Below are positions 835 to 23,922 of a DNA stretch of 64,000 nucleotides, piece by piece. Position 1 is the stretch's first letter, and the number at the start of each line of letters is the position of its first letter. Origin of the DNA: an uncultured Pelagibacteraceae bacterium. Lineage in GTDB: Bacteria; Pseudomonadota; Alphaproteobacteria; Pelagibacterales; Pelagibacteraceae. The position numbers were made by a program, and so were the translations under genes. Location of the stretch: positions 124,001 to 188,000 of the forward strand of contig CACPCD010000001.1 in the NCBI GenBank assembly GCA_902632315.1, read 5' to 3'. Below the pieces are notes generated by a model, which searched no databases, was not told the origin of the DNA, and saw only the letters and a program-made list of their open reading frames with translations.

Positions 835-837
835 TAA

Positions 838-3474: not shown

Positions 3475-3489
3475 TATCTTACATAGAAT

Positions 3490-5678: not shown

Positions 5679-5679
5679 T

Positions 5680-6480: not shown

Positions 6481-6483
6481 ATA

Positions 6484-7239
6484 ATGCTTTCCAGCAAGTT
6501 TTTTATCACAGTAAAAACAAAAAAAAAGATAGATAAATTTATGATTTATAAATATTTGGATAAATACTTAATGAATGATTTTACTGATGAAATTGCACAA
6601 ATCATAAGTAAAAAAAATAATAATGATTTAACAATCTTTGACGTGGGGTGTTTTTTAGGTAATTTCTCAAGAAATCTAAAAAAAAAAATTATTTCTAGAA
6701 ATGTAGATTTTTTTTTATTTGATCCAAATAAAAATTTAGAAATAAAAGACTTTGATTATTTTAAAATCGCTTTTTCTAATACAATTGGAAAACAAGATTA
6801 TCATTTAAATGAATTTTTTCCATCTTCAGGATCATCACTTAAAACTACGGTTAAAGATGATGCATTGTGGAATTGGACAAGAAAATTAGTTACATTTAAT
6901 TTTAATAAAAATTTTTCATCTCACACAGTTGATACAGATACAATTGATAATTTTTGTAAAGTTAAAAAGATAAATAAGATTGATATTTTAAAAATTGATG
7001 TTGAAGGGAATGAATTAGAAGTACTACTGGGTGCTGAAGAATCCTTAAATAGTATATTCTTAATTCAAATTGAAATTTTAGATTCTAAAGTAAATTTTGA
7101 TAAAAAATTTTCTGAAATTAAACTTCTACTTGAAGATAGATATGGATTTAAAATGATTAGGCAAAAAAATATTTGGACTCTGAATATTTTAAGCAAAATG
7201 AAGTCAAGTGATGCATTATTTATTAAAGATACATTGTAG
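6484..7239 (+). CDS. FkbM-family methyltransferase
   Basis: The ORF track opens at a TTG (6469) inside the divergent neighbour. The ATG at 6484 (MLSSKFFITVKTKK) removes that overlap and is preferred, giving 251 residues. Motifs are IFDVGCFLGNFSRNL for SAM binding, FLFDPN, and the canonical family block ILKIDVEGNELEVLLGA. It is the best-preserved FkbM core of the four in this window. It converges on the large membrane protein gene at 7255. Probably methylates a glycan residue; the target is unknown. Confidence 0.78.
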   Translation: MLSSKFFITVKTKKKIDKFMIYKYLDKYLMNDFTDEIAQIISKKNNNDLTIFDVGCFLGNFSRNLKKKIISRNVDFFLFDPNKNLEIKDFDYFKIAFSNTIGKQDYHLNEFFPSSGSSLKTTVKDDALWNWTRKLVTFNFNKNFSSHTVDTDTIDNFCKVKKINKIDILKIDVEGNELEVLLGAEESLNSIFLIQIEILDSKVNFDKKFSEIKLLLEDRYGFKMIRQKNIWTLNILSKMKSSDALFIKDTL

Positions 7240-7254
7240 ATTTTTATTATTTAC

Positions 7255-8613
7255 CTAATTAATTGAAGTCCTAATCACAAAGTAAATAATTAAAATTAAA
7301 AAATAATAAGAAATAAGATAAACACTAAATCTTTTATAATTTTCCTCCGTAAGGCAATTAAAAAATCTATTGTTAAACAAAAGTAACGCAATACATACCA
7401 AGAGCGGATCGAAAGTTTTGTGATACACGAATGGGTCAGGGTCTAAACATATTAATATTAATAACAATAATATATCACCGATATCTTTATCAAAAAATAT
7501 TTTACTAAAAAACAAAAAAGAAAAAAAACAAATAAAATAGAATAAATAATTATTGTTAAATAATAATTGAGATGCCTTATAAAAAATACCCCCACCGCCA
7601 AGTGAAGTAATAGGATAATTAAAGTTATAAATAAAAAAAGTTGTGATTAAAAAACTAGTTGATAGAAATAGAATTTGTTTTGTATTTATTTTTATTGAAT
7701 TAATAATGTTTTTATCATTCTTAATCATTATGAAGGGAAATAAATAAAATAAAAATATAGATGAACTAATCAGAATATTAGTTGAATATAAAACTAATGT
7801 AGGATCCATAAAAAAATTATTTGCCCAAGTAAAAAAAATATTGTCCAATATGAAGACATAATAAATTGCTGGAAAAGAAAAAATAATATTTAATAAACAG
7901 AATAAAATTAATTGTTTATTAAAACCTTTTAATAAGAAAATTTTATAAAAGAAAAATATTGAAAATAAGCTATAAATAGGTCTTACATATGCAGAGAGAG
8001 CTATAAATAATACATTTAAAAAAATAAAGATTAATTGTTTTTTTAATTCTAATTCATTAGTAAATTTTAAATAAAAAAGTATTCCAAGTAATAAAAATAA
8101 TAGAGCCAAATTCAAATCACCAGCCCATATAGCATAAGATCTAAAACATGGAGATATTAAGATGAAAAGTGAAATTAAAAATAATATATTCTTATCTAAT
8201 TCTTTGTATTTTTCTCTTAAACAAAAATAAAAAATTAGAGGTATTACTACAGATAAATGTAAATAAAATAATCTTAACAAACCATATTCAGCTCCATAAA
8301 CATCTAAATGGTGATGATAGATTTTAGTATTTGTGTTTACGTTAAGAGTGATGCCATCAAAAAAACTTTGAACCACAGTCATAAGTGCAAAATAAAAAGG
8401 TGAGTGATCCATGCTTAAATTTGAAAAAATATTAAAAAATTCAAATAAATCCTTTTTGGCAATATTTAACATCTGAACATAGGAGCTAAAATCTCGTATG
8501 GCACCACCGGTCAAATTTTCATTTGAGTAAAAACCAAACAACATTGTGAGATAAAGAAGTGAATAAACAATAATTAATTGTAAGTTTGATATTTTGAGAT
8601 TATTGTAATTCAT
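7255..8613 (-). CDS. Polytopic membrane protein, possibly GT-C-like glycosyltransferase
   Basis: 452 residues with roughly ten or more hydrophobic segments, starting at about residue 12 (LIIVYSLLYLTMLFGFY). The first large loop contains an acidic position (GGAIRDFSSYV) and MDHSPFYFALM. This resembles the acidic/HPPLYY loop of GT-C enzymes such as ArnT or PMT-type transferases that use lipid-linked sugars. That similarity is only at pattern level. Flanked by methyltransferase genes and followed (divergently) by a small methyltransferase and a GT2, it would fit a membrane step in surface-glycan assembly. Function unproven. Confidence 0.6.
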   Translation of the reverse strand: MNYNNLKISNLQLIIVYSLLYLTMLFGFYSNENLTGGAIRDFSSYVQMLNIAKKDLFEFFNIFSNLSMDHSPFYFALMTVVQSFFDGITLNVNTNTKIYHHHLDVYGAEYGLLRLFYLHLSVVIPLIFYFCLREKYKELDKNILFLISLFILISPCFRSYAIWAGDLNLALLFLLLGILFYLKFTNELELKKQLIFIFLNVLFIALSAYVRPIYSLFSIFFFYKIFLLKGFNKQLILFCLLNIIFSFPAIYYVFILDNIFFTWANNFFMDPTLVLYSTNILISSSIFLFYLFPFIMIKNDKNIINSIKINTKQILFLSTSFLITTFFIYNFNYPITSLGGGGIFYKASQLLFNNNYLFYFICFFSFLFFSKIFFDKDIGDILLLLILICLDPDPFVYHKTFDPLLVCIALLLFNNRFFNCLTEENYKRFSVYLISYYFLILIIYFVIRTSIN

Positions 8614-8710
8614 GAAATAGATTTAATTTAAATAATATTTAGATTAACACAAGTTAAACATAAATAAACTTTTTTAGTTATTTAAAAAATAAATAGCATA
8701 ATTTTTTAAT

Positions 8711-9328
8711 ATGAAATTGATAAATATTTTTTTTAAGATTTTTAAAAATTATAATTTTTATATCTTTATCATAATATTTTTTGAGATTTACTATTATATT
8801 AAAAAATATAAAGGTTTTAAATTTAATCTTTCTACAAATAAAACAATGGCTGATGATATTCCATGTCCATACTATTTTTTATTTAGAATTCTAAAAGTTT
8901 TAAAAAAAAAAAAATTTAAAAGTTTTATTGATTTAGGGTGTGGATCAGGAAGAATAATTGATTTTATAAATAATAATTTTTCTAATAAAAAGCTTGTTGG
9001 GGTCGAATATTTCAATAAACAATTTACTTATTCAAAAAAAATTTTCAAAGAATCACAAAATATTTCGATTATTCAATCAGATTTTACAAAACTAAATTTT
9101 AGAAAAAAAATCTATGATGTATACTTTTTAAGTGCTCCTTTTAAAAATAAAAAAGATTTTTTAAAATTCATGATGAAAATTTCAAAAATCAAAAAAATTC
9201 AAAAAAAAATTATTATAACAATTAATTATGAAAAAAAACTTCTCCAAAAAGTAAGTAAAATGAGATTTATTGACACTTTTTATTTAAGTGAAGACAAAGG
9301 CTATTCAATATGTTTAATTAAATCTTAA
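8711..9328 (+). CDS. Membrane-anchored class I SAM methyltransferase
   Basis: 205 residues. A hydrophobic N-terminal segment (about residues 14-30, NFYIFIIIFFEIYYYI) should anchor it in the inner membrane with the enzyme domain in the cytoplasm. The SAM motif is SFIDLGCGSGRIIDFI around residue 77, followed by LVGVEY and a SDF motif. It is extremely Lys/Ile/Phe rich. It opens a plus-strand run with GT2, cupin and DegT genes. The methylated substrate is unknown, but the context points to a lipid-linked sugar or lipid. Confidence 0.66.
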   Translation: MKLINIFFKIFKNYNFYIFIIIFFEIYYYIKKYKGFKFNLSTNKTMADDIPCPYYFLFRILKVLKKKKFKSFIDLGCGSGRIIDFINNNFSNKKLVGVEYFNKQFTYSKKIFKESQNISIIQSDFTKLNFRKKIYDVYFLSAPFKNKKDFLKFMMKISKIKKIQKKIIITINYEKKLLQKVSKMRFIDTFYLSEDKGYSICLIKS

Positions 9329-9343
9329 CTGTTATTATCAATT

Positions 9344-10042
9344 GTGAGTAAAAAAATTAGTATAATTCTCTCTACCTTTAATGAAAAGGAATCTATAAAA
9401 TATACAATTGATGAACTAGTTAAATATATTGATAACGTTGAAATAGTCGTAGTGGATGATAATTCACCTGATGGCACTTATGAAGTCTTGAAAGAAATAA
9501 AATATCCAAATATTAAGATATTTAATAGAAAAAAAAACAAAGGTTTAGCAACAGCTTTTCTAACAGGCCTAATAAATACTGAGGGGGAAATTGTTGGATG
9601 GTTAGACTCAAACATGGGAACTTTGGCAAAACATTTTCCAAAAATGATTTCCGAATTATCAAACTCAGATATTGTTTTACTTTCAAGATATGTAAACGGT
9701 GGTAATGATGAGCGAAATTTAATGAGAGTTATGTCGAGTAGAATTATTAATGGATTAGCTAGAATTATATTCAGATCAAAAATTAAAGATTTAAGCAGCG
9801 GTATATTCGTTATGCATAGAAAAGTTTTATTGGATGTAGTGCCTGTAGCTACTGGTCATGGAGAATTTTTTGTGGAATTTTTATATAAAGCTGAGAAAAG
9901 AGGAAATAAAATTTTAGAAATACCATATATTCACCCTGTAGATGTAGAAGGTAATAGTAAAAGTTTTCCAAGTTTACCAAGGTTTTTATTACTTGGTTTT
10001 TTTTATATATTAAGGTTGATACAAGCAATTTTTAGAAGGTAA
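9344..10042 (+). CDS. Glycosyltransferase family 2 (dolichol-phosphate-mannose synthase type)
   Basis: 232 residues, GTG start. The GT-A fold signature is ISIILSTFNEKESIKYTI, then VVVDDNSPDGTYEVL, a variant metal-binding region LDSNMGTLAKHFPKM (DPM-type enzymes usually have DADLQHPPE), and DLSSGIFVMHRKVL. The hydrophobic and basic C-terminus (FFYILRLIQAIFRR) suggests membrane association without full transmembrane helices. Such enzymes load a sugar from a nucleotide donor onto polyprenyl phosphate or another acceptor. The altered DxD segment makes donor and acceptor uncertain. Confidence 0.8.
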   Translation: MSKKISIILSTFNEKESIKYTIDELVKYIDNVEIVVVDDNSPDGTYEVLKEIKYPNIKIFNRKKNKGLATAFLTGLINTEGEIVGWLDSNMGTLAKHFPKMISELSNSDIVLLSRYVNGGNDERNLMRVMSSRIINGLARIIFRSKIKDLSSGIFVMHRKVLLDVVPVATGHGEFFVEFLYKAEKRGNKILEIPYIHPVDVEGNSKSFPSLPRFLLLGFFYILRLIQAIFRR

Positions 10043-10053
10043 ATTTAAAGATA

Positions 10054-10497
10054 ATGATTGAAAAAATAACTCACAAAAAAAAATTACTCGCTTTAATTGT
10101 AAGAAATAAATACAGAAAAAAAAAAGGAATTAATTTTTTCACAGATAAAAAGGCATCACAACAAGTTGGTTTCATGAAACATAAAAAAGATTATGTTATT
10201 TTACCTCATAAACATAACAAACGTAAAAAAACTGCTATTGCCAAAATAGATAGTACTACAGAAGTATTAATAATTCTCAAAGGAATTCTAAGAGTTGATT
10301 TTTACAGTCCTAATGAAAAATATTTGTTTAGTAAAAAACTTTATGAGAGTGATTTAATCATGCTATCAAGTGGTGGCCATGGTTTTAAAATATTAAAAGA
10401 TGTTGAAATGATCGAGGTAAAGCAAGGTCCTTATTTTGTATCAAAAGATAAAGTTAAATTCGATAAAACCGATGAAAGTCAAATCAAAATTAAATAA
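10054..10497 (+). CDS. Cupin-fold protein of sugar biosynthesis type
   Basis: 147 residues with the cupin barrel pattern: LPHKHNKRKK (His ligand pair), TTEVLIILKGILRVDFY, then SSGGHGFKIL. It resembles small WbuC/WxcM-like cupins found in O-antigen clusters, where related proteins isomerise or epimerise dTDP-keto-sugars or help assembly. It lies between the GT2 gene and an aminotransferase, and its 3' end overlaps the latter by 26 bases. The fold call is reasonable; catalytic role not established. Confidence 0.65.
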   Translation: MIEKITHKKKLLALIVRNKYRKKKGINFFTDKKASQQVGFMKHKKDYVILPHKHNKRKKTAIAKIDSTTEVLIILKGILRVDFYSPNEKYLFSKKLYESDLIMLSSGGHGFKILKDVEMIEVKQGPYFVSKDKVKFDKTDESQIKIK

Positions 10498-11605
10498 AAA
10501 ATTTATTTCAGTTAGTACACCACATATATCAAATCAAGATATTAAATCTGTTGTAAATGTTCTTAAAAAAGGCTGGATATCATCTGATGGACCTGAAGTA
10601 AAAACTTTCGAAAAAAAATTTTCAAAAAAAATTAAAAGAAAGTTTTCTGTCGCTGTATCAAGTGGAACAGCAGCACTAGAAATTGCAATTAAATCACTTA
10701 ATTTAAATAAAAATGATGAAGTAATTATTCCTAATTTTACAATAATTTCAAATGCATTGGCAGTTATCAAACAAAAAGCAAAACCAGTTTTAATTGATTG
10801 TGATATGAAAACTTGGAATATGAAATTAGAAGATTTAGAAAAAAAAATTACAAAAAAAACAAAAGCAATAATAATTACTCATATTTACTCTTTTTCTAAT
10901 GACATGGACAAGATTAAAAAAATTTGTAAAAAAAAAGGAATATTTTTAATAGAGGATGCTGCTGAAGTCATAGGATTAAAATACAAAGATAAATATTGTG
11001 GATCATTCGGTGACATAAGTACTTTTAGTTTTTATGCTAATAAGCAATTAACCACAGGTGAGGGTGGTATGATTTCTACAAATAATATTAGATTATTCAA
11101 AAAATGTAAGTCATTAAGAAATTTATGTTTCGGAAATAAACAAAGATTTAATCATGAAGATATTGGATGGAATTACAGATTAACAAATATTCAAGCCACA
11201 TTGGGAATAAGTCAGTTAGAAAGACTTGATAAGGTTGTTAGAAAGAAAATGTACATTGGAAATTATTATTATAAAAGATTATCTACAAATAAGAATATAT
11301 ATATGACTCCACCTAAAATCTCTTTTTCAAAAAATATTTATTGGGTAGTGGGAATAGTCATAAAGAATAAAAAGGTTTTAGCTTCAAGTATTATTAAAAA
11401 ATTAGCCAAATTTGGAATTGGTGCTAGACCTTTTTTTTGGCCAATGCATGAACAAAAAATTTTTAAAAAAATGAAAATTTTCGATAATACAAAATATCCT
11501 AATTCGTCATATTTAGGACGATATGGTTTTTATATCCCATCTCATCCAAAAATTAGTAATACTGAGATGAATTTTGTAATATCTAAAATTAATGGATTAT
11601 TATAA
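10472..11605 (+). CDS. DegT/DnrJ/EryC1/StrS sugar aminotransferase
   Basis: PLP-dependent aminotransferase that makes an amino-sugar from an NDP-keto-sugar. The 378 residues from the ATG at 10472 (MKVKSKLNKKF) match the family length; the track's TTG start adds twelve residues lying inside the cupin gene. Visible motifs: SSGTAALEIAI, the EDAAEVIG block carrying the PLP-binding Asp, the Schiff-base lysine in FSFYANKQLTTGEGG, and NYRLTNIQATLGISQL. With a 4,6-dehydratase nearby, it would supply a 4-amino or 3-amino-6-deoxy sugar. Confidence 0.88.
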   Translation: MKVKSKLNKKFISVSTPHISNQDIKSVVNVLKKGWISSDGPEVKTFEKKFSKKIKRKFSVAVSSGTAALEIAIKSLNLNKNDEVIIPNFTIISNALAVIKQKAKPVLIDCDMKTWNMKLEDLEKKITKKTKAIIITHIYSFSNDMDKIKKICKKKGIFLIEDAAEVIGLKYKDKYCGSFGDISTFSFYANKQLTTGEGGMISTNNIRLFKKCKSLRNLCFGNKQRFNHEDIGWNYRLTNIQATLGISQLERLDKVVRKKMYIGNYYYKRLSTNKNIYMTPPKISFSKNIYWVVGIVIKNKKVLASSIIKKLAKFGIGARPFFWPMHEQKIFKKMKIFDNTKYPNSSYLGRYGFYIPSHPKISNTEMNFVISKINGLL

Positions 11606-11673
11606 TAAAAAATTTACTTATTCATCTTGTTCAATTATAAATATTAGCCTAAACACTCATAATAACAATGTAT
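11604..11673 (+). promoter_or_regulatory. Copy 1 of the tRNA-Leu promoter region
   Basis: The stretch 11613-11660 matches 23940-23987, upstream of the intact tRNA-Leu, at 45 of 48 positions. It includes a TTTACT -35-like and a TATAAA -10-like hexamer about 17 bp apart. It lies directly upstream of the decayed tRNA-Leu fragment and the oxygenase gene at 11718, for which it is the likely promoter. Confidence 0.75.
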
Positions 11674-11718
11674 GCCTTAGAGATGAAATTGATTGATAGA
11701 AAGGGCTTCAAATATTGA
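11674..11718 (+). pseudogene. Decayed 5' half of tRNA-Leu
   Basis: An ungapped alignment to the first 45 bases of the intact tRNA-Leu(UAA) at 24001 gives about 33 identities, including TGAAATTG (D-arm region) and AAAGG.CTT.AAAT (anticodon arm). The acceptor stem is broken by substitutions, and the 3' half of the tRNA is absent. The fragment ends exactly at the ATG of the following gene. It cannot fold into a tRNA and is a relic of duplication. Confidence 0.72.
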
Positions 11719-12470
11719 TGATTTATTTTAATAAAGAAATTACTGAAATAAAAAAACAACCAATTTCTATATTCAAAATTGACAATTTTTTTGATTTAGA
11801 TTTTTATCTAGAGATAAAAAAAGTTTTTTATAAAATTGATCCTGAAGAATTAAGTTTGACAAAAAATTTTGGTAAAAAATCAATTAGTTCATTGGAATTG
11901 TCCTATGAAGATGAAAATCAGAGGAAAATATTAGAAAAGTTAAATCAGGTTTTTTTAAGTAAAGATTTTTTTAATTTTTTTGTAAAAAAAATATATTTAA
12001 ATAATATTAAAACGCAAAAAAATATTCTAAGAAAAATAAAGTATACAAGACTCCCAATGTTAAATAATAAAAAAAAATCAATATTTGATTTTTTATTTTC
12101 AAAAATCTCAGTAAGTTATCAATTGAGTTATATCAAAAATAATGGTGGCATTGTTCCTCATGTTGACTCTCAAAGAAAATATCTATCCTTAATGTTATAT
12201 TTTCCAGATAATGAAGAGAAAGAAATTGATTATGGAACAACTTTTTGGGAATCAAATGCTCCAAATTTTACAAATACTCACATTCAAGACAAAGAAAAAA
12301 TCAGTGATTTTAAAACCAAAAGTAAAAAGTTATATAAGACTCAATTTAATTCTAATTGTTTATATGGTTTTTTAAGAAATGATTTTTCTTGGCATAGTGT
12401 AGAACCTGTTAATATAGATGCAAATTACATAAGAAAATCAATAAATATTAATTTTCTTTATGATAACTAA
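11718..12470 (+). CDS. 2OG-Fe(II) oxygenase-like protein
   Basis: 250 residues from the ATG at 11718 (the track used the preceding TTG). The C-terminal half has the double-stranded beta-helix signature: GGIVPHVDSQRKYLSLMLYF gives the HxD iron ligands, WHSVEPV the distal His, and RKSININF the Arg that binds 2-oxoglutarate. Similar proteins occur in marine bacterial glycan clusters and in phages; the substrate is unknown. The gene starts immediately after a copy of the tRNA-Leu promoter and a dead tRNA fragment. It overlaps the next gene by 11 bases. Confidence 0.72.
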   Translation: MIYFNKEITEIKKQPISIFKIDNFFDLDFYLEIKKVFYKIDPEELSLTKNFGKKSISSLELSYEDENQRKILEKLNQVFLSKDFFNFFVKKIYLNNIKTQKNILRKIKYTRLPMLNNKKKSIFDFLFSKISVSYQLSYIKNNGGIVPHVDSQRKYLSLMLYFPDNEEKEIDYGTTFWESNAPNFTNTHIQDKEKISDFKTKSKKLYKTQFNSNCLYGFLRNDFSWHSVEPVNIDANYIRKSININFLYDN

Positions 12471-13299
12471 AAGTAAGAATAAGCTAAATCAAATATTTAA
12501 AAAAATTTTTCTCAAAAAACTCTATCAAAGACTTTACAGTTATTATTTAGTTTTAAGACATCCTAAAAAAGAACTACCAAATTATATTTTAAGAAAAAAA
12601 TACTTTGTTCAAGATGATAAGAAAAATAATCTTTTTTCATTAAGGTTAATGGGAGGTGCGATTCTCGCAAGAGGAACCACATTTTATACTAAAGAGCCTG
12701 AAACCGTAAATTGGATTAGAAACTTTAATAAGGAGTCTGTTTTTTTTGATATTGGAGCTAATATTGGAATTTATAGTTTATTTGCTGCCAGACTTAATCA
12801 TAGTACAGTATCTTTTGAGCCAGAAAGTCATAACTTTGCGGCATTAAATATAAATATTAATGACAATAATTTTGAAAAAAAAATTATTTCATATCCAATT
12901 TCTCTAGATGAAAAGATGAAAATATCACAATTAAATATTTTTAAGTTTAGATTTGGAAGCTCAGGACATTCATTTGATAGATCAATAAACTCTAAAGGAA
13001 AAGATTTTGATACATCACATATACAAGGAAGTATATCTATTACGCTTGATAAGTTTTGTGAAGAAACAAATATTTACCCAGATCATGTTAAAATAGATGT
13101 AGATGGTAATGAACTTAGAGTTGTAAAGGGAATGAAAGATTTGTTAGCTTCAAAAAAAATAAAATCTATATTAATTGAACTAGACAGATCGTATTCTGAA
13201 CACATAGAAGTTGTTAGTATATTAAAGTCATTTGATTATAAATTGATTTATAAAAATGATAAAGATGGTGTTTCTAATCATATATTCAATCGTAATTAA
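12460..13299 (+). CDS. FkbM-family methyltransferase
   Basis: 279 residues. An N-terminal extension of about 75 residues precedes the Rossmann domain, which shows VFFDIGANIGIYSLFAARL, SFEPESHNFAALNIN and the family block HVKIDVDGNELRVVKGM. It overlaps the oxygenase gene by 11 bases, so the two are translated together from the tRNA-Leu promoter copy. It converges on the next FkbM gene with 3 bases between stops. Confidence 0.8.
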   Translation: MITKSKNKLNQIFKKIFLKKLYQRLYSYYLVLRHPKKELPNYILRKKYFVQDDKKNNLFSLRLMGGAILARGTTFYTKEPETVNWIRNFNKESVFFDIGANIGIYSLFAARLNHSTVSFEPESHNFAALNININDNNFEKKIISYPISLDEKMKISQLNIFKFRFGSSGHSFDRSINSKGKDFDTSHIQGSISITLDKFCEETNIYPDHVKIDVDGNELRVVKGMKDLLASKKIKSILIELDRSYSEHIEVVSILKSFDYKLIYKNDKDGVSNHIFNRN

Positions 13300-13302
13300 A
13301 TT

Positions 13303-14028
13303 TTAATTTTTTTTCTTAAACAATATTTCTGTATGGTTTTTATTAGGTGAAGTTGACGAGTAAAAATTTTTTCCATTCAACCATTCTGACAGTTCGTTCC
13401 ACAAAACACCACCATCATAATAATTAATCTTGCTCACTTCTACCGAAAGCGAATTACAAAATTTTAGAGAATTTTCAGCTCCTTTAAAAGCTAGAAGTTC
13501 TGCACCTTGTAAATCAACTACCCAGTGATTGTACTCTTTAACGTTAATATTATTCTTTTTTAAAACAGTATCCAATTTAGTCATTTTTAATTTTATTTTA
13601 CTTCCCATATGAATTTTGCGACCTTCCCAACCTTTCTCTATAACTTCATTGCTAAAATTGAAGAGAGAAGAGCTCGCAGAATCATTACTAGAAATAAAGA
13701 AATCTTTTTGAACATCATCCTGATCACCGAGTAAAGCATGGAAAGCTTTTTGATCACCATAAAAGTACAAATTATCTTCTAGCTGGTCAAAAATATGCGG
13801 AACTGCTTCAAACCATATAACTTTCTTTCCAAACCAATTATATACTTCTGCCTCGGTTCCTTTATGAGCACCTAGATGTAAAATACCTGTTGATTTATTT
13901 ATACAATCTAAAGTTTCTAAGTCGATCTTACCGTAAGGATTAGATTTATAAGGAGGTCCTATTCTGATTAATTTAAAACCTAACGATCTTAATATTTTTT
14001 TAATTATTCTTTTTAAAATATATATCAT
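13303..14028 (-). CDS. FkbM-family methyltransferase (divergent)
   Basis: 241 residues. Motif I is changed to GILHLGAHKGTEAEVYNWF, followed by VIWFEAVPHIFDQLEDNL and WVVDLQGAELLAFKGAENSL in place of KIDVEGxExxVLxG. This LHLGAH subfamily is widespread in FkbM proteins of marine bacteria. Base composition is slightly less extreme than that of the neighbouring glycan genes. Start ATG at 14028, with Lys/Arg-rich first residues. Probably methylates a sugar, by family and context only. Confidence 0.74.
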   Translation of the reverse strand: MIYILKRIIKKILRSLGFKLIRIGPPYKSNPYGKIDLETLDCINKSTGILHLGAHKGTEAEVYNWFGKKVIWFEAVPHIFDQLEDNLYFYGDQKAFHALLGDQDDVQKDFFISSNDSASSSLFNFSNEVIEKGWEGRKIHMGSKIKLKMTKLDTVLKKNNINVKEYNHWVVDLQGAELLAFKGAENSLKFCNSLSVEVSKINYYDGGVLWNELSEWLNGKNFYSSTSPNKNHTEILFKKKN

Positions 14029-14064
14029 TTAATAAATGAGTAATAAATTAACATATAGATATAG

Positions 14065-14112
14065 AGATAAAATAAAAAAATTTTACTTATTATTCTTGTT
14101 CAATTATAAATA
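14065..14112 (+). promoter_or_regulatory. Copy 2 of the tRNA-Leu promoter region
   Basis: The 48 bases match 23923-23970 at 45 positions (AGATAAAATAAAAAAATTTT and ATTATAAATA are shared). This copy extends further upstream than copy 1 but stops just after the -10-like TATAAA. No tRNA remnant follows. It ends 4 bases before the ATG of the gene at 14117, so it would produce an almost leaderless mRNA or start further in. Confidence 0.72.
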
Positions 14113-14116
14113 GTTG

Positions 14117-15502
14117 ATGATACTTAAAATTTTGAGTGCAAAATCAAAAAAAGCTATAGGATTACTTGCTTTACTGGCATCGCTCGGAAGTTTTATTGCA
14201 GATGTGCTTCAGCCGTTAGCACCATTTTCTAAATATATTTTCTTTTTAGCTGTATTTTTATTAATCGTTTTTAGGTTATTAAATTTTTACAAAAAAGGTA
14301 TTTATGAAAAATTTTCTTTTATAATTATCTTTTTTTGGTTAGTTGCAATAATGAGTGGAGCTGTTTATTTAACAAAACAAAATTCTTTCAAAAAAAATGG
14401 TTTATTTGCAAACTTATTCCCATCAATACAAGAAGCTCAAAGTGGTCTTGGTATAATAGAAAAAGACTTAAGTGACATAAAAACCACAACAAATGAGATT
14501 AAAGAGGAAACTAAAGAAATTACAAAAAAACTTGAAAAAATTGAAAAAAAAATAGACTTTAATCAAAGAACAGAATTAGATCAGACAAAATTACCATTAA
14601 AATATAAAGTAAATTTTAATAAAAATAACGAAATAAGTATTTTCTTTCAGCCAGTTGAGTCCCCAAGAGAATTTTATGTAAGTAATGACGATGGAAAAAA
14701 TTTCAATTCTTTGGGATTTTTCGATGAAATTGACCAAAGGACAGGATTAAATTTACCAAAAAACAATTTTTCTTTTTCTTCCACAGAAAAGTATAAAAAT
14801 TTACAAGTTAAATATTTGGATATAAATTCTGTAATAAAAGGACCGTTCGAACTAAATATTGATTTAATTCAAGAATTTAAAATTTATCAAAAGAAAAAAA
14901 TTAAAAACAGTAAAAACAAATGGGTGCAAATAAATAATTATTCATGGTCAACTAATAATTTAGGCAATGCAGATCCATCTAAAGATACGAATATTTATGG
15001 TGATTGGAACATATCTTTTCTTTTAAAAAATAGATGTGCATTAAAATCAGTAATAATTAAACTTGACGACAAATACTATATGAGAGGTTTAGGATTTAAT
15101 AATACCCATAAAACAATTAGGCTTTATGAAAGCTCTTTTAAAGAAAAAAAAATTGTTTTACCTAATTGTGATTTAGAATTAAAAAATTATGACTTTAAAG
15201 AAGACTATAAACCGAGTAAATATATCACTAAATCGTCTTATAAAACAACAGATGCCTTTACTGGTAAAGAAATAGAAAGAAATATAAATTTACCCTCAAA
15301 AATTTGGGAAAAAAAATTTTCAGAAATTTCAATTAAATATTCCGAAATCTTAGATTTATTAAAATATGAAGATATGAACTTGGAAACAATTTATAATGAT
15401 ACATATGCAAAAGGGCCTTTGAGAGAAATAGCAATAAGAGTCGAATATTTTGATGGAGAGAGTTCAATTTTTGAAAAATTTGTGAATTTAAATAAGAACT
15501 AA
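14117..15502 (+). CDS. Membrane-anchored coiled-coil protein of unknown function
   Basis: 461 residues from the ATG at 14117 (TTG at 14114 in the track). Three hydrophobic segments lie at about residues 14-90 (LLALLASLGSFIADVL, YIFFLAVFLLIVFRLL, FIIIFFWLVAIMSGAVYL). A coiled coil rich in Lys/Glu follows at about 118-155 (TNEIKEETKEITKKLEKIEK). A long, probably beta-rich domain to the end carries Trp and Tyr. I recognise no catalytic motif. The topology suggests a large domain held at the membrane surface by a stalk. First gene of the island, directly behind tRNA-Leu promoter copy 2. Confidence 0.6.
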   Translation: MILKILSAKSKKAIGLLALLASLGSFIADVLQPLAPFSKYIFFLAVFLLIVFRLLNFYKKGIYEKFSFIIIFFWLVAIMSGAVYLTKQNSFKKNGLFANLFPSIQEAQSGLGIIEKDLSDIKTTTNEIKEETKEITKKLEKIEKKIDFNQRTELDQTKLPLKYKVNFNKNNEISIFFQPVESPREFYVSNDDGKNFNSLGFFDEIDQRTGLNLPKNNFSFSSTEKYKNLQVKYLDINSVIKGPFELNIDLIQEFKIYQKKKIKNSKNKWVQINNYSWSTNNLGNADPSKDTNIYGDWNISFLLKNRCALKSVIIKLDDKYYMRGLGFNNTHKTIRLYESSFKEKKIVLPNCDLELKNYDFKEDYKPSKYITKSSYKTTDAFTGKEIERNINLPSKIWEKKFSEISIKYSEILDLLKYEDMNLETIYNDTYAKGPLREIAIRVEYFDGESSIFEKFVNLNKN

Positions 15503-15541
15503 TTTACTTGCAATATTTATCATAATTGATAATTCTTAAGT

Positions 15542-15901
15542 ATGAATTTTCAGCAATCTATAGAAAAATGTTTTAAAAATTATGCCAATTTCAATGGTCG
15601 AGCTAAAAGATCTGAGTTATGGTTTTTTTATCTCTTTGTAATATTAGTTGGTATGGCAACTGGGATTATAGATTTTATTATCGATCCTACTGGTAATTTT
15701 GTACTTTTTAATTCTATAGCTTCACTAGCTTTACTTATTCCTCAATTTTCAGTTGGTAGTCGTAGATTACACGATATTGGTAAATCTGGTTGGTGGCAAT
15801 TATTATACCTAACAATCATTGGAGGTATTGTAGTTCTAGTTTGGTTTGCAACTGATACAGTAAAGAAAAAAAATCAATTTGGTCCTGTACCTAAAAAATA
15901 A
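15542..15901 (+). CDS. DUF805 family membrane protein
   Basis: 119 residues with the DUF805 pattern: N-terminal FKNYANFNGRAKRSELWFFYLF, a hydrophobic core with several short helices, then SRRLHDIGKSGWWQLL and a C-terminal helix ending in basic residues. Such proteins are small inner-membrane proteins without a defined biochemical role. A second DUF805 gene of different sequence lies at 17851 on the other strand. Six bases separate it from the PrsW-like gene. Confidence 0.86.
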   Translation: MNFQQSIEKCFKNYANFNGRAKRSELWFFYLFVILVGMATGIIDFIIDPTGNFVLFNSIASLALLIPQFSVGSRRLHDIGKSGWWQLLYLTIIGGIVVLVWFATDTVKKKNQFGPVPKK

Positions 15902-15906
15902 TTTAA

Positions 15907-16566
15907 TTGTTTTTATTGTTTTTAACCGTAGCGCCTTCTTTTTTTATATTACTTTATTTAGTTAAAAGTGATCGTTTCCCCGAACCAACAGAAAAGATTA
16001 TAAAAACATTTCTTTGGGGTGTTGTTATTATTATACCTGCAGCTATTGCAAATGACTTGTTAATAAGTAATTGGAGTTTATTAAAAATTAGTGATTCAGT
16101 TTCTCATTCTTTTTTATCAGCTGGACCTATAGAGGAAGGGTTAAAGTTTTTAATTCTTACAAGTATAATTTCAAAATATAAGGATTACGATCACCCTGTA
16201 GATGGAATAGTTTATTGTGTCTGTTTATCTCAAGGTTTTGCGTCTTTAGAAAATATTTATTATATATACTTATTATATGGATCTTCATTTGAAATAGCTG
16301 TCTTAAGGGCTATTACTGCCGTCCCCGCACATGCAATGTTTGGTGCAATCATGGGTATTTTTTATTCACACCATCTATTAGCTAAAAAAAAAGAAGACAA
16401 AAAAATGTTTTTTGCGCTATCAATCATTGTGCCCATTCTGTTACATAGTTTTTATAATTATTTTATGTATACAACTCCGATTCTAGCAATTGTTTTACTT
16501 GGCACAGGAATCTATTACAGCTTTACAGTATTTAAAAAATGGAATGAAAAAAAAATTAGAATTTAA
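15907..16566 (+). CDS. PrsW-family intramembrane metalloprotease
   Basis: 219 residues, TTG start. The PrsW/CPBP-type motifs are visible: GPIEEGLKFLIL with the paired Glu, AVPAHAMFGAIMGIFY with its His, and a later VPILLHSFYNYF with the third His, spread over about seven transmembrane helices. In Bacillus, PrsW cleaves an anti-sigma factor. Here the substrate is unknown; neighbouring membrane proteins are candidates. It overlaps the convergent gene at 16556 by 11 bases. Confidence 0.82.
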   Translation: MFLLFLTVAPSFFILLYLVKSDRFPEPTEKIIKTFLWGVVIIIPAAIANDLLISNWSLLKISDSVSHSFLSAGPIEEGLKFLILTSIISKYKDYDHPVDGIVYCVCLSQGFASLENIYYIYLLYGSSFEIAVLRAITAVPAHAMFGAIMGIFYSHHLLAKKKEDKKMFFALSIIVPILLHSFYNYFMYTTPILAIVLLGTGIYYSFTVFKKWNEKKIRI

Positions 16567-17854
16567 CTTCTTTTTTTTTCAAAGTATTTTCATTATCTTT
16601 AAACTTATAGCCCATAAGATTTAAAAGATCATAGTAGTTATTATATCCGATATTATTTTCATTAATTCCAACAACTAAATTAAAATAAAATTTTGATGAA
16701 AAGAAAGAGCTAAAACAACCAGAACGAACACTTAATGTATACTCTTTATTATTCAAGTCAGAGACAATAAATGACTCTGATATATCTTTTTGAGTTTTAT
16801 ATTCCTTAACTATTTTGTTTGCAGCTTCATTGCAGCTATTTATATCGTCATAAACCTCTTTAGAGGAAGCAATTATTCTTATTATAGGTTCTGGATTGTC
16901 ATTTTTATCAATTATTTTATAAGTATAAAAGTAGTATCTTTCAAAAATGTCATTTTTTGTTTCAGGCAAAAATTCATATCGAAAAACTGATACTTTTAAT
17001 TTTTTAAAGTTTTCATAAAAAAATTCAACTGTAGGATCAAATCTATCTTTTTCTGTAATAATATCGTCATAATTTTTTTTTAAACTTAAAAACCTTATAT
17101 TAAATAGACTAGAATTTTTTTCTATCTTCTTTTTTCTTAACAAATTTTTTTCTAGAGAGACTATTGATTTATTCTCATTTTCAATATTTGTTATACTTTG
17201 CTCAATTATTGATAAAATTTTCTCATTGTAAGAAATTAACAATTGAGATGATTTTTTTAGAGAATTATTATGATTTTCATTCAATGAATAATTCAATAGT
17301 GTTCTGAAATTTGACAATTCTAAAAGAAAAACCTCTAAATTTTTCTCTATTTGAAATAATAAATCATTACAAGCTTTATCTTTATTGATTTTTTTATTGT
17401 TAAGATCATCGTTTTCAATAACTATTATGCTACTTTTACAAGTATCTTTTAATTTTAAAAATAAAATATTAAATTTACGTAAAAATGTATTTGTATTTTT
17501 TATTGCATTAGCAGAACTTTCTTTTTGTTCAAAATATATATTTTTATAATTTTGATATTCCTCGTAAGTAAACTTTTTTCCAAACATACCTTTTTTTTCA
17601 CCAGTTGCATTTTGGAGGCTATATAAAACTCTATTATAATGTTCAAGAAGGCTAGAGCCACATTGGACAGCAACACATGTGTTAAAAGCATTTTCATTAT
17701 CCCTTCTAAAAATATCCTCATATCTATTAAATTCACCACGGTTCCAGCTATTATAAATTAATTCAAAATCATTAGAGATTTTTTCAAAATTTGTAGAAGC
17801 GTTTACATTAAAAATAAAAAATAAGGATAAGAAATATAAGTATAAAAATTTCAT
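16556..17854 (-). CDS. Exported protein of unknown function
   Basis: 432 residues with a clear signal peptide (MKFLYLYFLSLFFIFNVNAS), so it is probably periplasmic or outer-membrane associated. The mature part has a Cys pair in NTCVAVQCGSSLL, long helical and coiled-coil stretches between about residues 150 and 270, and a C-terminal beta-like region with two further Cys. I recognise no family. Its start overlaps the stop of the upstream DUF805 gene by 4 bases, so these two form a minus-strand pair. It converges with the PrsW-like gene. Confidence 0.6.
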   Translation of the reverse strand: MKFLYLYFLSLFFIFNVNASTNFEKISNDFELIYNSWNRGEFNRYEDIFRRDNENAFNTCVAVQCGSSLLEHYNRVLYSLQNATGEKKGMFGKKFTYEEYQNYKNIYFEQKESSANAIKNTNTFLRKFNILFLKLKDTCKSSIIVIENDDLNNKKINKDKACNDLLFQIEKNLEVFLLELSNFRTLLNYSLNENHNNSLKKSSQLLISYNEKILSIIEQSITNIENENKSIVSLEKNLLRKKKIEKNSSLFNIRFLSLKKNYDDIITEKDRFDPTVEFFYENFKKLKVSVFRYEFLPETKNDIFERYYFYTYKIIDKNDNPEPIIRIIASSKEVYDDINSCNEAANKIVKEYKTQKDISESFIVSDLNNKEYTLSVRSGCFSSFFSSKFYFNLVVGINENNIGYNNYYDLLNLMGYKFKDNENTLKKKEVKF

Positions 17855-18228
17855 GTAAAATCGCTTAACACTTTAGGAATATTACCATAACGGTTTTTTT
17901 TTGGATCACCCGTTGTACACCACCACACAAATAGAGGAATTAATCCAATTATTGTAAAGGAAAGTAAGAACCACCATCCACTTTTCCCAGTATCATGCAA
18001 TCTTCTAAAGATAAGACTTAATTGAGGAAAAGCTGTAGCTAGGAAAAAAATTCCACTAACCACACCCATTTCATCTGGGTGATACCCAATAACGTATGTA
18101 TCAATTAAATGTGTAAAAAAGTTAACTATAAGAATAAATAAAAAAAAATACCAAAATTCTGATCTATTTGATCTTCCACTAAAATTAAAATAATTTTTAA
18201 ACGCTTTATCTATTGCAAAACTCATCAT
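17851..18228 (-). CDS. DUF805 family membrane protein (second copy)
   Basis: 125 residues, N-terminal FKNYFNFSGRSNRSEFWYFFLF and central FRRLHDTGKSGWWFLLSFT, the same family landmarks as the gene at 15542 but clearly diverged. ATGATG start; either Met is possible. It is translationally coupled to the exported protein downstream and is read divergently from the small membrane protein at 18252, 23 bp away, so a two-way promoter must sit in that gap. Confidence 0.86.
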   Translation of the reverse strand: MMSFAIDKAFKNYFNFSGRSNRSEFWYFFLFILIVNFFTHLIDTYVIGYHPDEMGVVSGIFFLATAFPQLSLIFRRLHDTGKSGWWFLLSFTIIGLIPLFVWWCTTGDPKKNRYGNIPKVLSDFT

Positions 18229-18251
18229 AATAAAATATTAAACATATTTAT

Positions 18252-18557
18252 ATGGCTTTTGCACTAATTTCATTGGAAAATAAAAAAACAAATCAAGTTA
18301 AACTTGCCCCAATAGGTTTTTCATGGACTAACTTTTTTTTTGGTTTTTTTGTTCCATTATTTAGAGGTGATTGGAAATGGGCAGCAATATTTTTTGCTGT
18401 AGGTTGGGTAACTTTTGGATTTGGAAGCCTTATAACTGCTTTTTTTTACAACAAACTTTACGCAGAAGATTTATTAAAAAATGGTTTTAAAGTAAAATCT
18501 CTTAACGGGGCTGACAAAAGTTTAGTTAAAGCACGTTTAGGTGTTACAAAATTATAA
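18252..18557 (+). CDS. Small membrane protein (DUF2628-like)
   Basis: 101 residues. The conserved-looking part is GFSWTNFFFGFFVPLFRGDWKWA, followed by a Gly/Phe-rich hydrophobic hairpin (FFAVGWVTFGFGSLITAFFYN) and a polar C-terminal tail. This W..FFFG..W..RGDW..A pattern resembles DUF2628 and related short proteins that pack against membranes. No enzymatic motif. The next gene follows after 3 bases. Confidence 0.65.
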   Translation: MAFALISLENKKTNQVKLAPIGFSWTNFFFGFFVPLFRGDWKWAAIFFAVGWVTFGFGSLITAFFYNKLYAEDLLKNGFKVKSLNGADKSLVKARLGVTKL

Positions 18558-18560
18558 GTT

Positions 18561-19298
18561 TTGTTTAATTTTATTAAAGACACGTTTAATAAAACAATAA
18601 TTGATTTAGAAAATCCAAAAATCTTAAAAACATTATTTTTTTCAATTTTAATTACAACAATAATTGCAATTATAATTTTTATATTTTTCTATTATTTTTT
18701 ATTTTCTTCATTATTCAATCTATCTGATCCATCTAATTTTGATGAAGATGGAATATTATACTATATTTTTAGTTTAAAAATTTTTGCTGTGCTGTTAGGC
18801 ATAATTCAATTTTTTACCTCATGGATATTAGTTTCTCTAATATTGGTTCCAATTGGTTCAATTGTTTCAGGTTTATTTGCTGAGAAAATATTTTTCAATA
18901 TTAAAGAAACTCATAATTATAAGTGGGAAAAAAAATTAAAAAAAAACGCATTTTATCTATCAAATAAATTTGCTTTAATCGCTGCTATTAAAAGTTTTTT
19001 AATCAATATATTAATTTTACCTTTATATCTGTTGCTACCAATTGCAAACATTTTTATATTTATTTTCGTAAATGGTTTATTGATTGGTCGAGAATTTTGT
19101 GGAAACTTTTTAATTCAATTTTTTGAAAAAGAAAAAATTAAATTAATTAATCTTCATTTAGATAGTAAAATTTATGTTCTTGGAATATTTGTGGTTGTAT
19201 TATATACAATTCCATTTGTTAATTTATTAGCTCCTACAATAGCAAATCTTCTATTTTCACACTTGATTTTACAATCTAATAAAAGTATTTTTAAGTAA
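18561..19298 (+). CDS. EI24/CysZ-like integral membrane protein
   Basis: 245 residues, TTG start, with four to six hydrophobic segments. The signature [20 protein letters not shown] near residue 165 matches the conserved N-G-x-L-x-G-R-E/Y block of the EI24/CysZ family. CysZ proteins take up sulfate. Many family members of unknown substrate exist, and no cys genes lie nearby, so sulfate transport is not asserted. It continues the operon from 18252 and precedes the TM2 gene. Confidence 0.7.
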
Positions 19299-19318
19299 AT
19301 AAACTACAAAGGAGTTAT

Positions 19319-19519
19319 ATGCAAAAATCAAAAACAACAGCAGCTTTGCTTTGCTTTTTTTTAGGTGCGTTAGGTGTTCATAGATTTTACACAGGAAAGA
19401 TTGGAACTGGTGTAATTCAATTATTAACATTAGGTGGCTTTTACATATGGGCCGTAATTGATTTTATTATGATTTTAACGGGCTCTTTCACTGACGTTAA
19501 CGGCAAAAAACTTAAGTAA
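19319..19519 (+). CDS. TM2 domain protein
   Basis: 66 residues, essentially one TM2 domain: [32 protein letters not shown], then [17 protein letters not shown]. Two helices are joined by the GxxGxHRFYxG loop. It has an unusually clear ribosome-binding site for this genome (AAGGAGTTAT before the ATG). Function of TM2 proteins in bacteria is not defined. A strong hairpin lies just downstream at 19556. Confidence 0.88.
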
Positions 19520-19553
19520 AAAAATATTTTTTTTTTTAATATTTTTTTTCAAA

Positions 19554-22061
19554 ATGGGAGTGGTTCTATCAGAACCACTTCCTTTAATTGTTAATTATTC
19601 ACCTTCAGATTATGGAGCACTTACACAAAATTGGGGTGTGACCGAAGATAAAGATGGGCGTATTTATTTTGCAAATAACAATGGAGTATTAATCTACGAT
19701 GGATTCAATTGGAAACTAATTGGCTTACCAAACTTTAAAAGTGCAAGATCAATATCAGTTGATAACAATGGTAGTGTTTTAGTTGGAAGTAGAGGTGAAT
19801 TTGGTTTTATTAAAATAGATAAAGATAACAAGATTTCTTATAAAAGTCTTAGCAAAAATCTTCCTAATTATAAATCGAACTCAGTTATATACGAAACCCA
19901 TGTATTAGATGAGCATTTAATTTTTTTTAGATCTTATAAAAAATTATTTTTAGTTGAAAAACAAAAAGTTTTTGAACTTGAAAATTCTTTCAATGATAGG
20001 GTGGAGAGATCTTTTTTTACAAATCAAGAATTATTTGTCTTTATAAGAAATACTGGCCTATATGAGTTTGATAAAAATAACAAAAAGTTTGATTTAGTAA
20101 AGGAGTCAAAATTTTTTGATACAAAATCAAAAACCGTCAATGGATTTCATATCATTGATGATAATAAAATATTTATAACAAGAGGATCAGGTATTTATAT
20201 ATCTAACAATAATGAGTTAAAAAAAATTAATTATGAAAATAAAATAATTAATGAAACTACTATATACCGATCGTATCAATTAAAAAATTCTAATATAGCA
20301 TTAGCCACGTATGATGGAATTTTCATATTAAATAAATCACTAGAAATTATTGATCATTTTAATTCCGATAAAGGTATGAGATCAAATAATGTTAGATCAC
20401 TATTTGAGGACTCATCAGGAAATCTTTGGGCTGGACTGGATGATGGAATAGCAAAAATATTAATAAAATCTCAATTTAGATTTTATCCTAAATTATATGC
20501 TAAAACTGGTGGTACTGTTTATGACTTAAATCTTTTTAATAATAATGTTTTCATTTCATCTGCTACAGGACTTAGAAAACTGAGTACTAATAATGTTGAT
20601 TTAAATGCTGAATTTATTTCTGTGGCTAATGAAAATATAAAAAGTCAAACTTGGGCTATAGAACCTATCAATGGTTCACTAGTTGTAGGACATTTAGGAG
20701 GTTTAGGAAAAATTGATGAAAATGAAATTTATTCCCAAATTGTTTCTAAAAAAATAACTGGCACAATATATTCTCTTAAAAAATCAGAATTTTTAAAAAA
20801 TAAATTTTTTGTTGGCTCTAGAAAAGGATTATTTATTTTTGACAATAGTTTTGAGGAATTTCAAAAAGTTGAAGGTATAAAATCATCTATTTGGAGAATA
20901 GTTGAATTACCAACCAGAAAAGAAGTGTGGGTATTTAATGAAGGAAAAGGAATATTTAGAATAAAATTCGATGAAAATGAAAAAATTTCTGTCAATAAAT
21001 TTTCATCTGATGATGGTTTACCATCTAATAATAAACTCTACATCTTAAAATACAAAGATACATTGATAGTAGGTACGAAATTAGGAACCTATGAATTTGA
21101 CTATAAAAATAAGAAATTTATTAAAAGTAATATTTTTTCAGAAAAAATATTAGGAAAAAATAAACATCTAATTAGATTGGTTTCGATAAATGACAAACAT
21201 TTATTTCATACTGTTCATTATGAAAATTTTAAACGTATTCAAAAATTTTATGAAATAAAAGATGAAACTATCAATGAGTTTCCAATACCAGAAGTATCGA
21301 AAAATGTTTCCGTTAAATACCATTACTTAAAAAAGGATAAATTATTTTTTACAAGTAATGAAGGAGTAGCAGTTTTTAATATTAACAAAAAAGAAGTAGA
21401 CAGAAAAAGTAATAGCAAGGTTATATTTTCTAAAATTTTAGTTAATAAAAAGCCTATATTTTTTGGTGGAAATCAACAATCCTACGATAAAGAAGTCCAT
21501 AAAATAAAGAATATTTTTAAGTATAATGAAAATTCATTTGATTTTTATTTTTCAGCTACAGATTATTTAGATGAGCAAAGTAATTCTTTTAATACAAATA
21601 TAGTTAATTATAAGGAAAAAAATATTTTTTTTTCAAATGATAAAAAATTTACTTATGAAAATTTAATCCCAGGCAAATATATCTTAGAGGCAAATTCAAA
21701 AAATGCTAGAAATGAAGTTTTGCCATCACTTTATTATGAATTTACAATCAATAAACCTTGGTGGCAAACTGCCTATTTTTATATTGGGGAAATTATTTTT
21801 TTTATGATTTTGCTTTTCTTTACAATTATTTCTAAGCAAAATAGCAAATCTCAAAAATACGCTACTGCTTTAACCTTTATAATGATCCTAATTTTATTTG
21901 AATACATTAATTTTTTCCTAGATCCTCTTTTTTATAATTTGACAGGTGGAGTTCCAGTATTCAATATATTAAGTAAAGTATTATTAGGAGTTTTATTAAA
22001 ACCAATTGAAAATTTAGCTGACAAACTTCTTCTGTTATCCTCCCAATACCTCAAAAGATAA
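19554..22061 (+). CDS. Beta-propeller sensor protein (Reg_prop/Y_Y_Y) with C-terminal membrane segments
   Basis: 835 residues. Multiple two-component-regulator propeller repeats are visible, such as EDKDGRIYFANNNGVLIYDG near residue 32 and LFEDSSGNLWAGLDDGIAKI near 285. A Y_Y_Y-type Ig domain follows (YENLIPGKYILEANSKNARNEV), then hydrophobic helices (FYIGEIIFFMILLFFTII and two more). Related proteins sense periplasmic glycans and end in a histidine kinase; here no kinase, HTH or GGDEF domain follows. No signal peptide follows the ATG used. In-frame codons just upstream would encode [12 protein letters not shown], so the true start may be a non-canonical codon or be lost by a homopolymer indel. 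Confidence 0.72.
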   Translation: MGVVLSEPLPLIVNYSPSDYGALTQNWGVTEDKDGRIYFANNNGVLIYDGFNWKLIGLPNFKSARSISVDNNGSVLVGSRGEFGFIKIDKDNKISYKSLSKNLPNYKSNSVIYETHVLDEHLIFFRSYKKLFLVEKQKVFELENSFNDRVERSFFTNQELFVFIRNTGLYEFDKNNKKFDLVKESKFFDTKSKTVNGFHIIDDNKIFITRGSGIYISNNNELKKINYENKIINETTIYRSYQLKNSNIALATYDGIFILNKSLEIIDHFNSDKGMRSNNVRSLFEDSSGNLWAGLDDGIAKILIKSQFRFYPKLYAKTGGTVYDLNLFNNNVFISSATGLRKLSTNNVDLNAEFISVANENIKSQTWAIEPINGSLVVGHLGGLGKIDENEIYSQIVSKKITGTIYSLKKSEFLKNKFFVGSRKGLFIFDNSFEEFQKVEGIKSSIWRIVELPTRKEVWVFNEGKGIFRIKFDENEKISVNKFSSDDGLPSNNKLYILKYKDTLIVGTKLGTYEFDYKNKKFIKSNIFSEKILGKNKHLIRLVSINDKHLFHTVHYENFKRIQKFYEIKDETINEFPIPEVSKNVSVKYHYLKKDKLFFTSNEGVAVFNINKKEVDRKSNSKVIFSKILVNKKPIFFGGNQQSYDKEVHKIKNIFKYNENSFDFYFSATDYLDEQSNSFNTNIVNYKEKNIFFSNDKKFTYENLIPGKYILEANSKNARNEVLPSLYYEFTINKPWWQTAYFYIGEIIFFMILLFFTIISKQNSKSQKYATALTFIMILILFEYINFFLDPLFYNLTGGVPVFNILSKVLLGVLLKPIENLADKLLLLSSQYLKR
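19556..19583 (+). terminator. Stem-loop after the TM2 gene (terminator-like)
   Basis: GGGAGTGGTTCT-ATC-AGAACCACTTCC folds into a 12-bp stem with one G-T pair and a loop of about 3-4 bases, followed by TTTAATT. It would end transcription of the TM2 operon, but it overlaps the annotated start of the propeller gene, so it might instead control that gene. Confidence 0.55.
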
Positions 22062-22071
22062 AAATTTTGAT

Positions 22072-22527
22072 TTATTTTGCTGATATTTTTAGATTTTTTA
22101 TTTTTTCTTCCAATAAAGAAATTGCTTTATGAATTTTGTCTTTTTCATTTTTACTTAGAGATGCACCTAAGTCACTTTTAGGATCTAATGCAGACTCAGT
22201 TAAATCCATAATATCACCTAAACGTCCCCCAATATTCATTAAAATTGAATTGATATTTTCAAAGTAATTTGCTTGATTCATAATTTCATGTAAATTTGTG
22301 CTTATAGCATCAAACAACGGTGTTCCTTTAGATTTCTTTAGTAATAACTCATCTATACTGAGTGCATCATTGATTGTTAATGAATGATTATGATCATCAG
22401 GATCTCCACATTTAAAAAAATGTGATTTACTTTTATTTGTTGCACTTTTTAATTCTTCTTCAGTTAAATTTTTAAGAGCATTTTGTAATGCAAATTCGAT
22501 AGTATTTGGCTTTCTTAATTTAGTCAT
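22072..22527 (-). CDS. Phage CII/CP76-like regulator (tentative)
   Basis: 151 residues, cytoplasmic, no membrane segment. The N-terminal half (LKNLTEEELKSATNKSKSHFFKCGDP, then LTINDALSIDELLLKK) resembles the helix-turn-helix and proline/aspartate loop of phage CII-like regulators. The rest is predicted helical with an acidic/basic C-terminal coil. The similarity is pattern-level only. It is read against the propeller gene and divergently from the small secreted-protein operon at 22610, so it could control that operon. Alternative: an unrelated helical protein. Confidence 0.5.
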   Translation of the reverse strand: MTKLRKPNTIEFALQNALKNLTEEELKSATNKSKSHFFKCGDPDDHNHSLTINDALSIDELLLKKSKGTPLFDAISTNLHEIMNQANYFENINSILMNIGGRLGDIMDLTESALDPKSDLGASLSKNEKDKIHKAISLLEEKIKNLKISAK

Positions 22528-22609
22528 AAGGTGGTTTATATCATTTTAGGTGAAAAATATAAGTAACTATTTCACTATAAAATTAAAAAAAATTTCCTAA
22601 ATTTAAATT

Positions 22610-23150: not shown

Positions 23151-23167
23151 ACATAATGAAAGGAAAA

Positions 23168-23849: not shown

Positions 23850-23897
23850 TCATTACATTAATCTTATTGGAAAATAAGGCTCAATTAATTTGTGAAA

Positions 23898-23917: not shown

Positions 23918-23922
23918 TAGAA

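Follow-up and report, generated by a model that had tools for sequence, protein, structure and literature searches.

Promoter copies upstream of a SAR11 tRNA-Leu(UAA) gene as probable remnants of cassette accretion

The locus described here raises the question of why the promoter region of a tRNA-Leu gene recurs, far upstream of that tRNA, directly in front of a protein-coding gene. In the window (the whole analysed stretch of 64,000 nucleotides, from an assembly whose source organism was judged from its relatives to be SAR11), a repeat search revealed copies at 11590–11643, 14059–14112 and 23917–23970, all on the + strand, in agreement with an initial annotation that had placed three equally oriented copies at 11.6, 14.1 and 23.9 kb. 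The match it had reported between 14065–14112 and 23923–23970 could be reproduced, with 45 of 48 bases identical, where the 48-base background on both strands of the window averaged 15.8 (sd 3.4), with 31/48 as the top score of any unrelated place; chance or AT-rich similarity was ruled out by this difference as the source of the repeat. The third copy is the current promoter and leader (23917–24000, +) of an intact tRNA-Leu(UAA) gene (24001–24086, +), which is the attachment site, with an insertion point common to relatives. The 5′ half of this tRNA spans 24001–24039 and ends in the core CTTAAAA (24033–24039). No copy beyond these three was present in the assembly, which is 82.6% complete and was searched in full. 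Since a strict sigma-70 pattern scan gave no match in copies 2 and 3, the label promoter refers to their position before the tRNA and their conservation.

Copy 1 (11604–11713, +; 80% identity over 107–115 nt, profile E 4e-20) comprises a displaced promoter, the leader and a decayed 5′ half of tRNA-Leu. Its alignment to copy 3 (11607–11713 to 23934–24040, 80% identity over 107 nt) continues through the leader into the tRNA, of which it covers the first ~40 nt, and the core of this copy reads CTTCAAA (11706–11712). The A/T block described as missing from this copy turned out not to be wholly missing, as TATAATAAAAAA is retained with a 2-nt gap. Copy 2 (14059–14112, +; 91% over 54 nt) ends after TATAAATA and thus represents a promoter without any tRNA part, so that a tRNA fragment at the far border is present in copy 1 and absent from copy 2. 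As annotated, copy 2 lies between a divergent FkbM gene (–) and the first gene of a membrane island, the ORF of which starts at TTG 14114 or ATG 14117, 2–5 bases past the end of the repeat. Because copy 1 is decayed and copy 2 truncated, these two block borders are set by comparison rather than by intact ends.

A query consisting of the promoter and tRNA matched in 117 of 151 genomes of the genus (source genome included), with at least one additional match in 61 of the matching genomes according to a manual count of the table. Regions upstream of the tRNA were collected from relatives and compared with a profile model of the promoter and 5′ half, which revealed 256 copies in 143 loci and none on the opposite strand. 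Among 217 unique copies, 133 were partial, all situated upstream of the intact tRNA and on its strand, and 128 of these ended in the anticodon loop (model positions 122–126). Each partial copy comprises the promoter followed by ~39 nt from the start of the tRNA; the blocks bounded by such copies measure 0.15–12 kb. In a subset not selected by that sequence, the base following CTTAAAA was T in 53/53 intact genes and varied among partial copies, whose tRNA halves were 98.6% identical to the intact half, suggesting that most displacements are recent; 39 of 60 loci in this subset were occupied, which is no frequency estimate because the subset was partly picked for extra copies. At least 120 GTDB contig stretches contain the junction sequence; of these, the 80 listed belonged to Pelagibacteraceae or Pelagibacterales, one being titled only Alphaproteobacteria. 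The pattern is also present in two single-contig genomes and in a second genus of the family, and many of the loci stem from single-cell genomes, so that metagenome binning is not its cause. The phenomenon is general and extends beyond this window.

When gene order at this tRNA was compared among relatives, blocks proved to be gained or lost exactly at the repeats. In 50 locus pairs, the 300 nt before the promoter aligned and were followed by the intact tRNA in one member and by an extra block in the other; as these pairs share a flank yet differ by a block exactly there, blocks must have been gained or lost at this point. Shared flanks followed by different blocks were seen in 63 pairs, and by the same block in one. 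Loci L175 and L208, for example, are 95% identical across 2,950 nt, with the identity halting exactly at CTTAAAA, after which L208 carries an 825-bp block and a new promoter before homology to L175 returns at the tRNA. Promoter replacement predicts that an unoccupied site should have a promoter closer to the displaced than to the current tRNA promoter, and this was so in 23 of the 28 pairs that could be tested. The new promoter was clearly unlike the usual one in three integrase-bearing loci (L096, L143 and L144). The features of a tRNA-associated island were thereby found, namely an intact tRNA at one border, a fragment in direct orientation at the other, and precise unoccupied sites in relatives. 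The original proposal that blocks had been added successively at tRNA-Leu was largely right, additions in relatives lying exactly at the repeats, and it is refined here in that the repeated unit comprises the promoter together with the tRNA 5′ half, with the newest block adjoining the tRNA.

The ends of these blocks share a common anatomy. At the left end, the core is followed by three AGTCY repeats at ~10-nt spacing in 103 of 127 partial copies (background 0.6%), and no such repeats were present after intact tRNA genes. The arms are followed by a conserved A/T stretch and then by two 8–9 nt words at 11-nt spacing. Beyond this word pair lies the first ORF; its start is a median of 177 nt past the core (interquartile range 174–198), and 71 of 76 such ORFs have the orientation of the tRNA. 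A word pair is also present at the right end, directly before the next promoter, and although the words vary from cassette to cassette, an identical 8-mer occurred at both ends in 63 of 70 cassettes (permutation mean 9.9, maximum 20). Window copy 1 has a cargo ORF that begins right after the tRNA half, an arrangement seen in 4 of 24 unarmed copies, which does not differ significantly from the 11% background.

The 77 complete armed cassettes measure 0.15–8.7 kb (median 2.1 kb) and have 97% of their coding bases on the tRNA strand. Their cargo proteins are N-terminally hydrophobic in 62% of cases, versus 20% in upstream controls; type-IV-pilin-like genes are common, and Pfam assignments include DNA methylases with a restriction-enzyme part, a trypsin-like protease and an MFS transporter. 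One cassette (L037:4042–9348) holds about ten tandem type-IV-pilin-like genes that share an N-terminus and diverge in the rest. Cassette ORFs of L035, L037, L050, L267 and L269 encode differing cargo proteins with a near-identical, signal-peptide-like start, MKKLLGIVVLGLL, as if a conserved leader reached into the coding region.

An integrase is absent from 75 of the 77 armed cassettes, and no integrase was found in the window blocks at tRNA-Leu. The remaining two, L096 and L143, encode a tyrosine integrase ~100 nt from the core, and their left word pairs fall within the start of the integrase gene; the L096 word, ACCAGCACA, is also found at the tRNA of the window. L096 furthermore encodes a primase-type protein (AEP-TOTE + DUF5906), and these integrase-bearing elements look like phage satellites. 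A structure model of the integrase (mean pLDDT 73, pTM 0.42) matched Xer, Tn1549 and lambda recombinases, and one part of it aligned to the arm-binding domain of the HPI integrase (3jtz) with a TM of 0.76 (by target length) at an E of only 0.06, so that the N-terminal domain is predicted to be arm-binding-like. Relatives of this integrase occurred in 6 of 399 genomes. Searching viral contigs with the junction pattern, two word pairs and the integrase revealed no related viral contig, while a broader tRNA-junction pattern retrieved mostly pelagiphage-like ones. A third integrase, accompanied by other arm sequences, is present in L144, in which pilin genes, a cassette and an integrase-bearing satellite are stacked at one tRNA-Leu (1–14433). 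Given the different arms of this satellite, integrases of different arm specificity seem to use this site.

We therefore return to copy 2 of the window: the sequence at 14059–14112 is most probably a promoter left over from accretion, at tRNA-Leu(UAA), of mostly integrase-less, CIME-like cassettes. A cassette would enter at CTTAAAA in the anticodon loop through site-specific recombination, and its right end would bring a fresh promoter and 5′ half, so that the tRNA would be rebuilt under the promoter of the newcomer. The former promoter and 5′ half would be left at the far end, heading the new block, and repeated rounds would line up blocks 5′ of the tRNA, with the youngest adjoining it. This reading takes the end structures, the exact insertion point, block gain and loss, promoter replacement and the integrase-bearing elements as they appear in the compared sequences, and adds that integrase-less cassettes are presumably moved in trans by the tyrosine integrase of a satellite, or by accretion, that the word pairs may be arm-type integrase sites, and that the cast-off promoter may transcribe the cargo. 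The ends shared by integrase-less cassettes and integrase-bearing elements support it, and the lack of an adjacent integrase in most arrays, the rarity of integrase relatives (6 of 399 genomes) and the lack of related viral contigs for the integrase speak against it. A more tentative extension, which we regard as possible rather than probable, is that each insertion equips the tRNA with a replacement promoter while the former one becomes the promoter of the cassette, with the matched, variable 9-nt word serving as an address that chooses the helper integrase.

Within the window, block 1 (11715–14028) holds a 2OG-Fe(II) oxygenase-like ORF (under the Pfam cut-off) and two FkbM methyltransferase genes, one on the + and one on the – strand; its first and third ORFs had no homologue among the 61 loci compared. 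Block M (14114–23849) holds membrane and envelope genes (DUF805, PrsW protease, EI24/CysZ-like, Reg_prop and small secreted proteins) and is rare, one marker protein occurring in 4 of 399 genomes. It is collinear at the same tRNA in genome G008 (L133:6597–16218) and partially present in G160. The G008 alignment begins at the ATG equivalent to 14117, and the promoter copy before it is absent. Past the end of block M, G008 contains a decayed arm, promoter and tRNA fragment (identified by eye) and three further genes before the tRNA, meaning that, relative to the window, one block has been gained or lost exactly at the repeat. No AGTCY arms were found behind window copies 1 and 2. Given this lack of arms and the missing leading promoter in G008, copy 2 could also have arisen later, by a rearrangement that joined a promoter directly to the leading gene of block M. 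Between block M and the current promoter, 23850–23916 (+) is, by alignment and word match, a collapsed cassette in which left-end-type sequence runs into the word pair ACCAGCACA-AG-ACCAGCAC (23898–23916): it aligned to cassette left ends with a score of 121 (random maximum 73), and the word pair is an exact match where 0.01 would be expected by chance. This stretch, which resembles a cargo-less 147-bp cassette of genome G077, appears from its sequence to be a cassette end stripped of cargo and the youngest in the window. The window is thus best read as showing old stages, with copies 1 and 2 as old displaced promoters.

Alternatively, the tRNA promoter might have undergone homologous recombination or segmental duplication, the repeats being ordinary duplications at which blocks were later exchanged by crossover. 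At ~120 bp and 90% alike they would suffice for homologous exchange, and the collapsed cassettes (the 147-bp one of G077 and window 23.85–23.92 kb) resemble products of recombination between word pairs; random duplications, however, would not predict a sharp end in the anticodon loop, a constant strand, arm repeats or matched words, which renders this account unlikely. Homologous recombination probably acts in addition to integration, in the loss of cargo, and not in its place. We consider it very improbable that the blocks form an integron-like array run by the conserved SAR11 chromosomal tyrosine recombinase (about 305–320 aa), even though PF00589 proteins, mostly of this type, occur in 110 of 151 genus genomes, and cassettes without an integrase of their own and with co-oriented cargo (71/76 first ORFs) are integron-like. 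This recombinase has its own palindromic site just upstream of its gene (TTACTA.TGATAA-TTAATTG-TTATCA.TAGTAA), which disfavours it as the cassette enzyme; its length would leave little room for an arm-binding domain, it is not adjacent to tRNA-Leu, and the satellites encode a different integrase with ends matching those of the cassettes. Nor were the attC sites and adjacent IntI-type integrase of an integron found, the attachment site being an anticodon loop and the ends carrying phased repeats and word pairs.

That the blocks are remnants of T7-like pelagiphage prophages seems very improbable. The attP of such phages does hold the same tRNA 5′ half: in HTVC105P and an uncultured relative, 45 nt identical to it lie between the integrase and RNA polymerase genes, and many IMG/VR contigs likewise contain it. 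Yet no phage structural or replication genes were apparent between the attachment sites in the ORF lists of the cassettes read, young intact ones included, the AGTCY arms were not seen in phage flanks, and phage attP sites lack a host-like promoter, with L079 as the exception. This viral contig (1–3867) starts with a host-like promoter and tRNA 5′ half (93%), followed by phage genes including an RNA-polymerase-like ORF, and looks like the left junction of a pelagiphage integrated at the same tRNA-Leu site.

Of the features of cassette accretion described here, tRNA islands, islands stacked at one RNA gene, integrase-less CIMEs and a phage attP in the first half of tRNA-Leu are already known. 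In Dehalococcoides, tandem ssrA islands bounded by direct repeats, some without integrases and proposed to be cis-mobilizable, are likewise stacked beside one RNA gene, but they repeat the ssrA 3′ end (20 bp) and use a serine recombinase (PMC3146451); the SAR11 cassettes instead displace a promoter and 5′ half, measure ~2 kb and carry phased arms and matched words. CIMEs of the ICESt1 family and IMEs also lack integration genes, keep attL and attR and accrete in tandem (PMC5704250). Retained attL and attR with loss of integration and transfer genes was found in 75 of 77 armed cassettes (transfer genes being judged from ORF lists); unlike for CIMEs, no conjugative or mobilisation element was identified here, and the integrase-bearing relatives are phage-satellite-like. 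Small tRNA-inserted cassettes with partial-tRNA direct repeats also characterise the additive flexible genomic islands of Actinomarinales (PMC7771536) and Methylophilaceae (PMC10872708), whose hosts are streamlined marine or freshwater bacteria. The Methylophilaceae islands repeat the final 20 bp of tRNA-Lys, and the accessible text describes no promoter displacement or matched end words (PMC10872708). T7-like cyanophages have an attP equal to the first half (39 nt) of a tRNA-Leu, with integration shown by PCR (PMC8776855), and pelagiphage HTVC105P carries a tRNA-Leu 5′ half identical to that here; these are whole phages with capsid genes, other arm sequences and no arrays. Tycheposons, by second-hand description, likewise carry cargo, are bounded by tRNAs, encode a tyrosine recombinase and occur in marine streamlined bacteria; the same account gives them a different size (4–200 kb) and an xerD-type recombinase. 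In the searchable literature, outside which the original tycheposon, VEIME and pelagiphage-integration papers lie, we found neither SAR11 arrays displacing a tRNA promoter and 5′ half nor matched word pairs at cassette ends, and any novelty is claimed only within this limit.

The SAR11 clade counts among the ocean's most abundant groups of bacteria and has small, streamlined genomes. With a defined attachment site, cassette ends and recognisable integrase-bearing relatives, its gene gain becomes testable at one locus, where matched end words suggest a readable link between cassette and integrase and promoter replacement would offer a simple means of keeping the tRNA expressed while cargo accumulates before it.

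The source genome encodes two PF00589 proteins, namely the integrase of a tRNA-Thr island and the conserved recombinase on contig 35 (L060). The latter type (~305–320 aa; L053–L071) occurs once per SAR11 genome and scores far under the XerC/XerD cut-offs; a palindrome of the TTACTATTGATAA-TTAATTG-TTATCAATAGTAA type lies directly before its gene, and glycosyltransferase-like genes often lie behind it. This is possibly a single-recombinase system at a variable region. The tRNA-Thr(UGU) gene of the window (37257–37332, –) borders a conventional island (30330–37332) in which a partial 3′ copy of the tRNA, 68 nt long, occupies 30330–30397. This island encodes a tyrosine integrase (30480–31460) and a DUF5906 protein (33513–35588), a gene content like that of the tRNA-Leu satellites.
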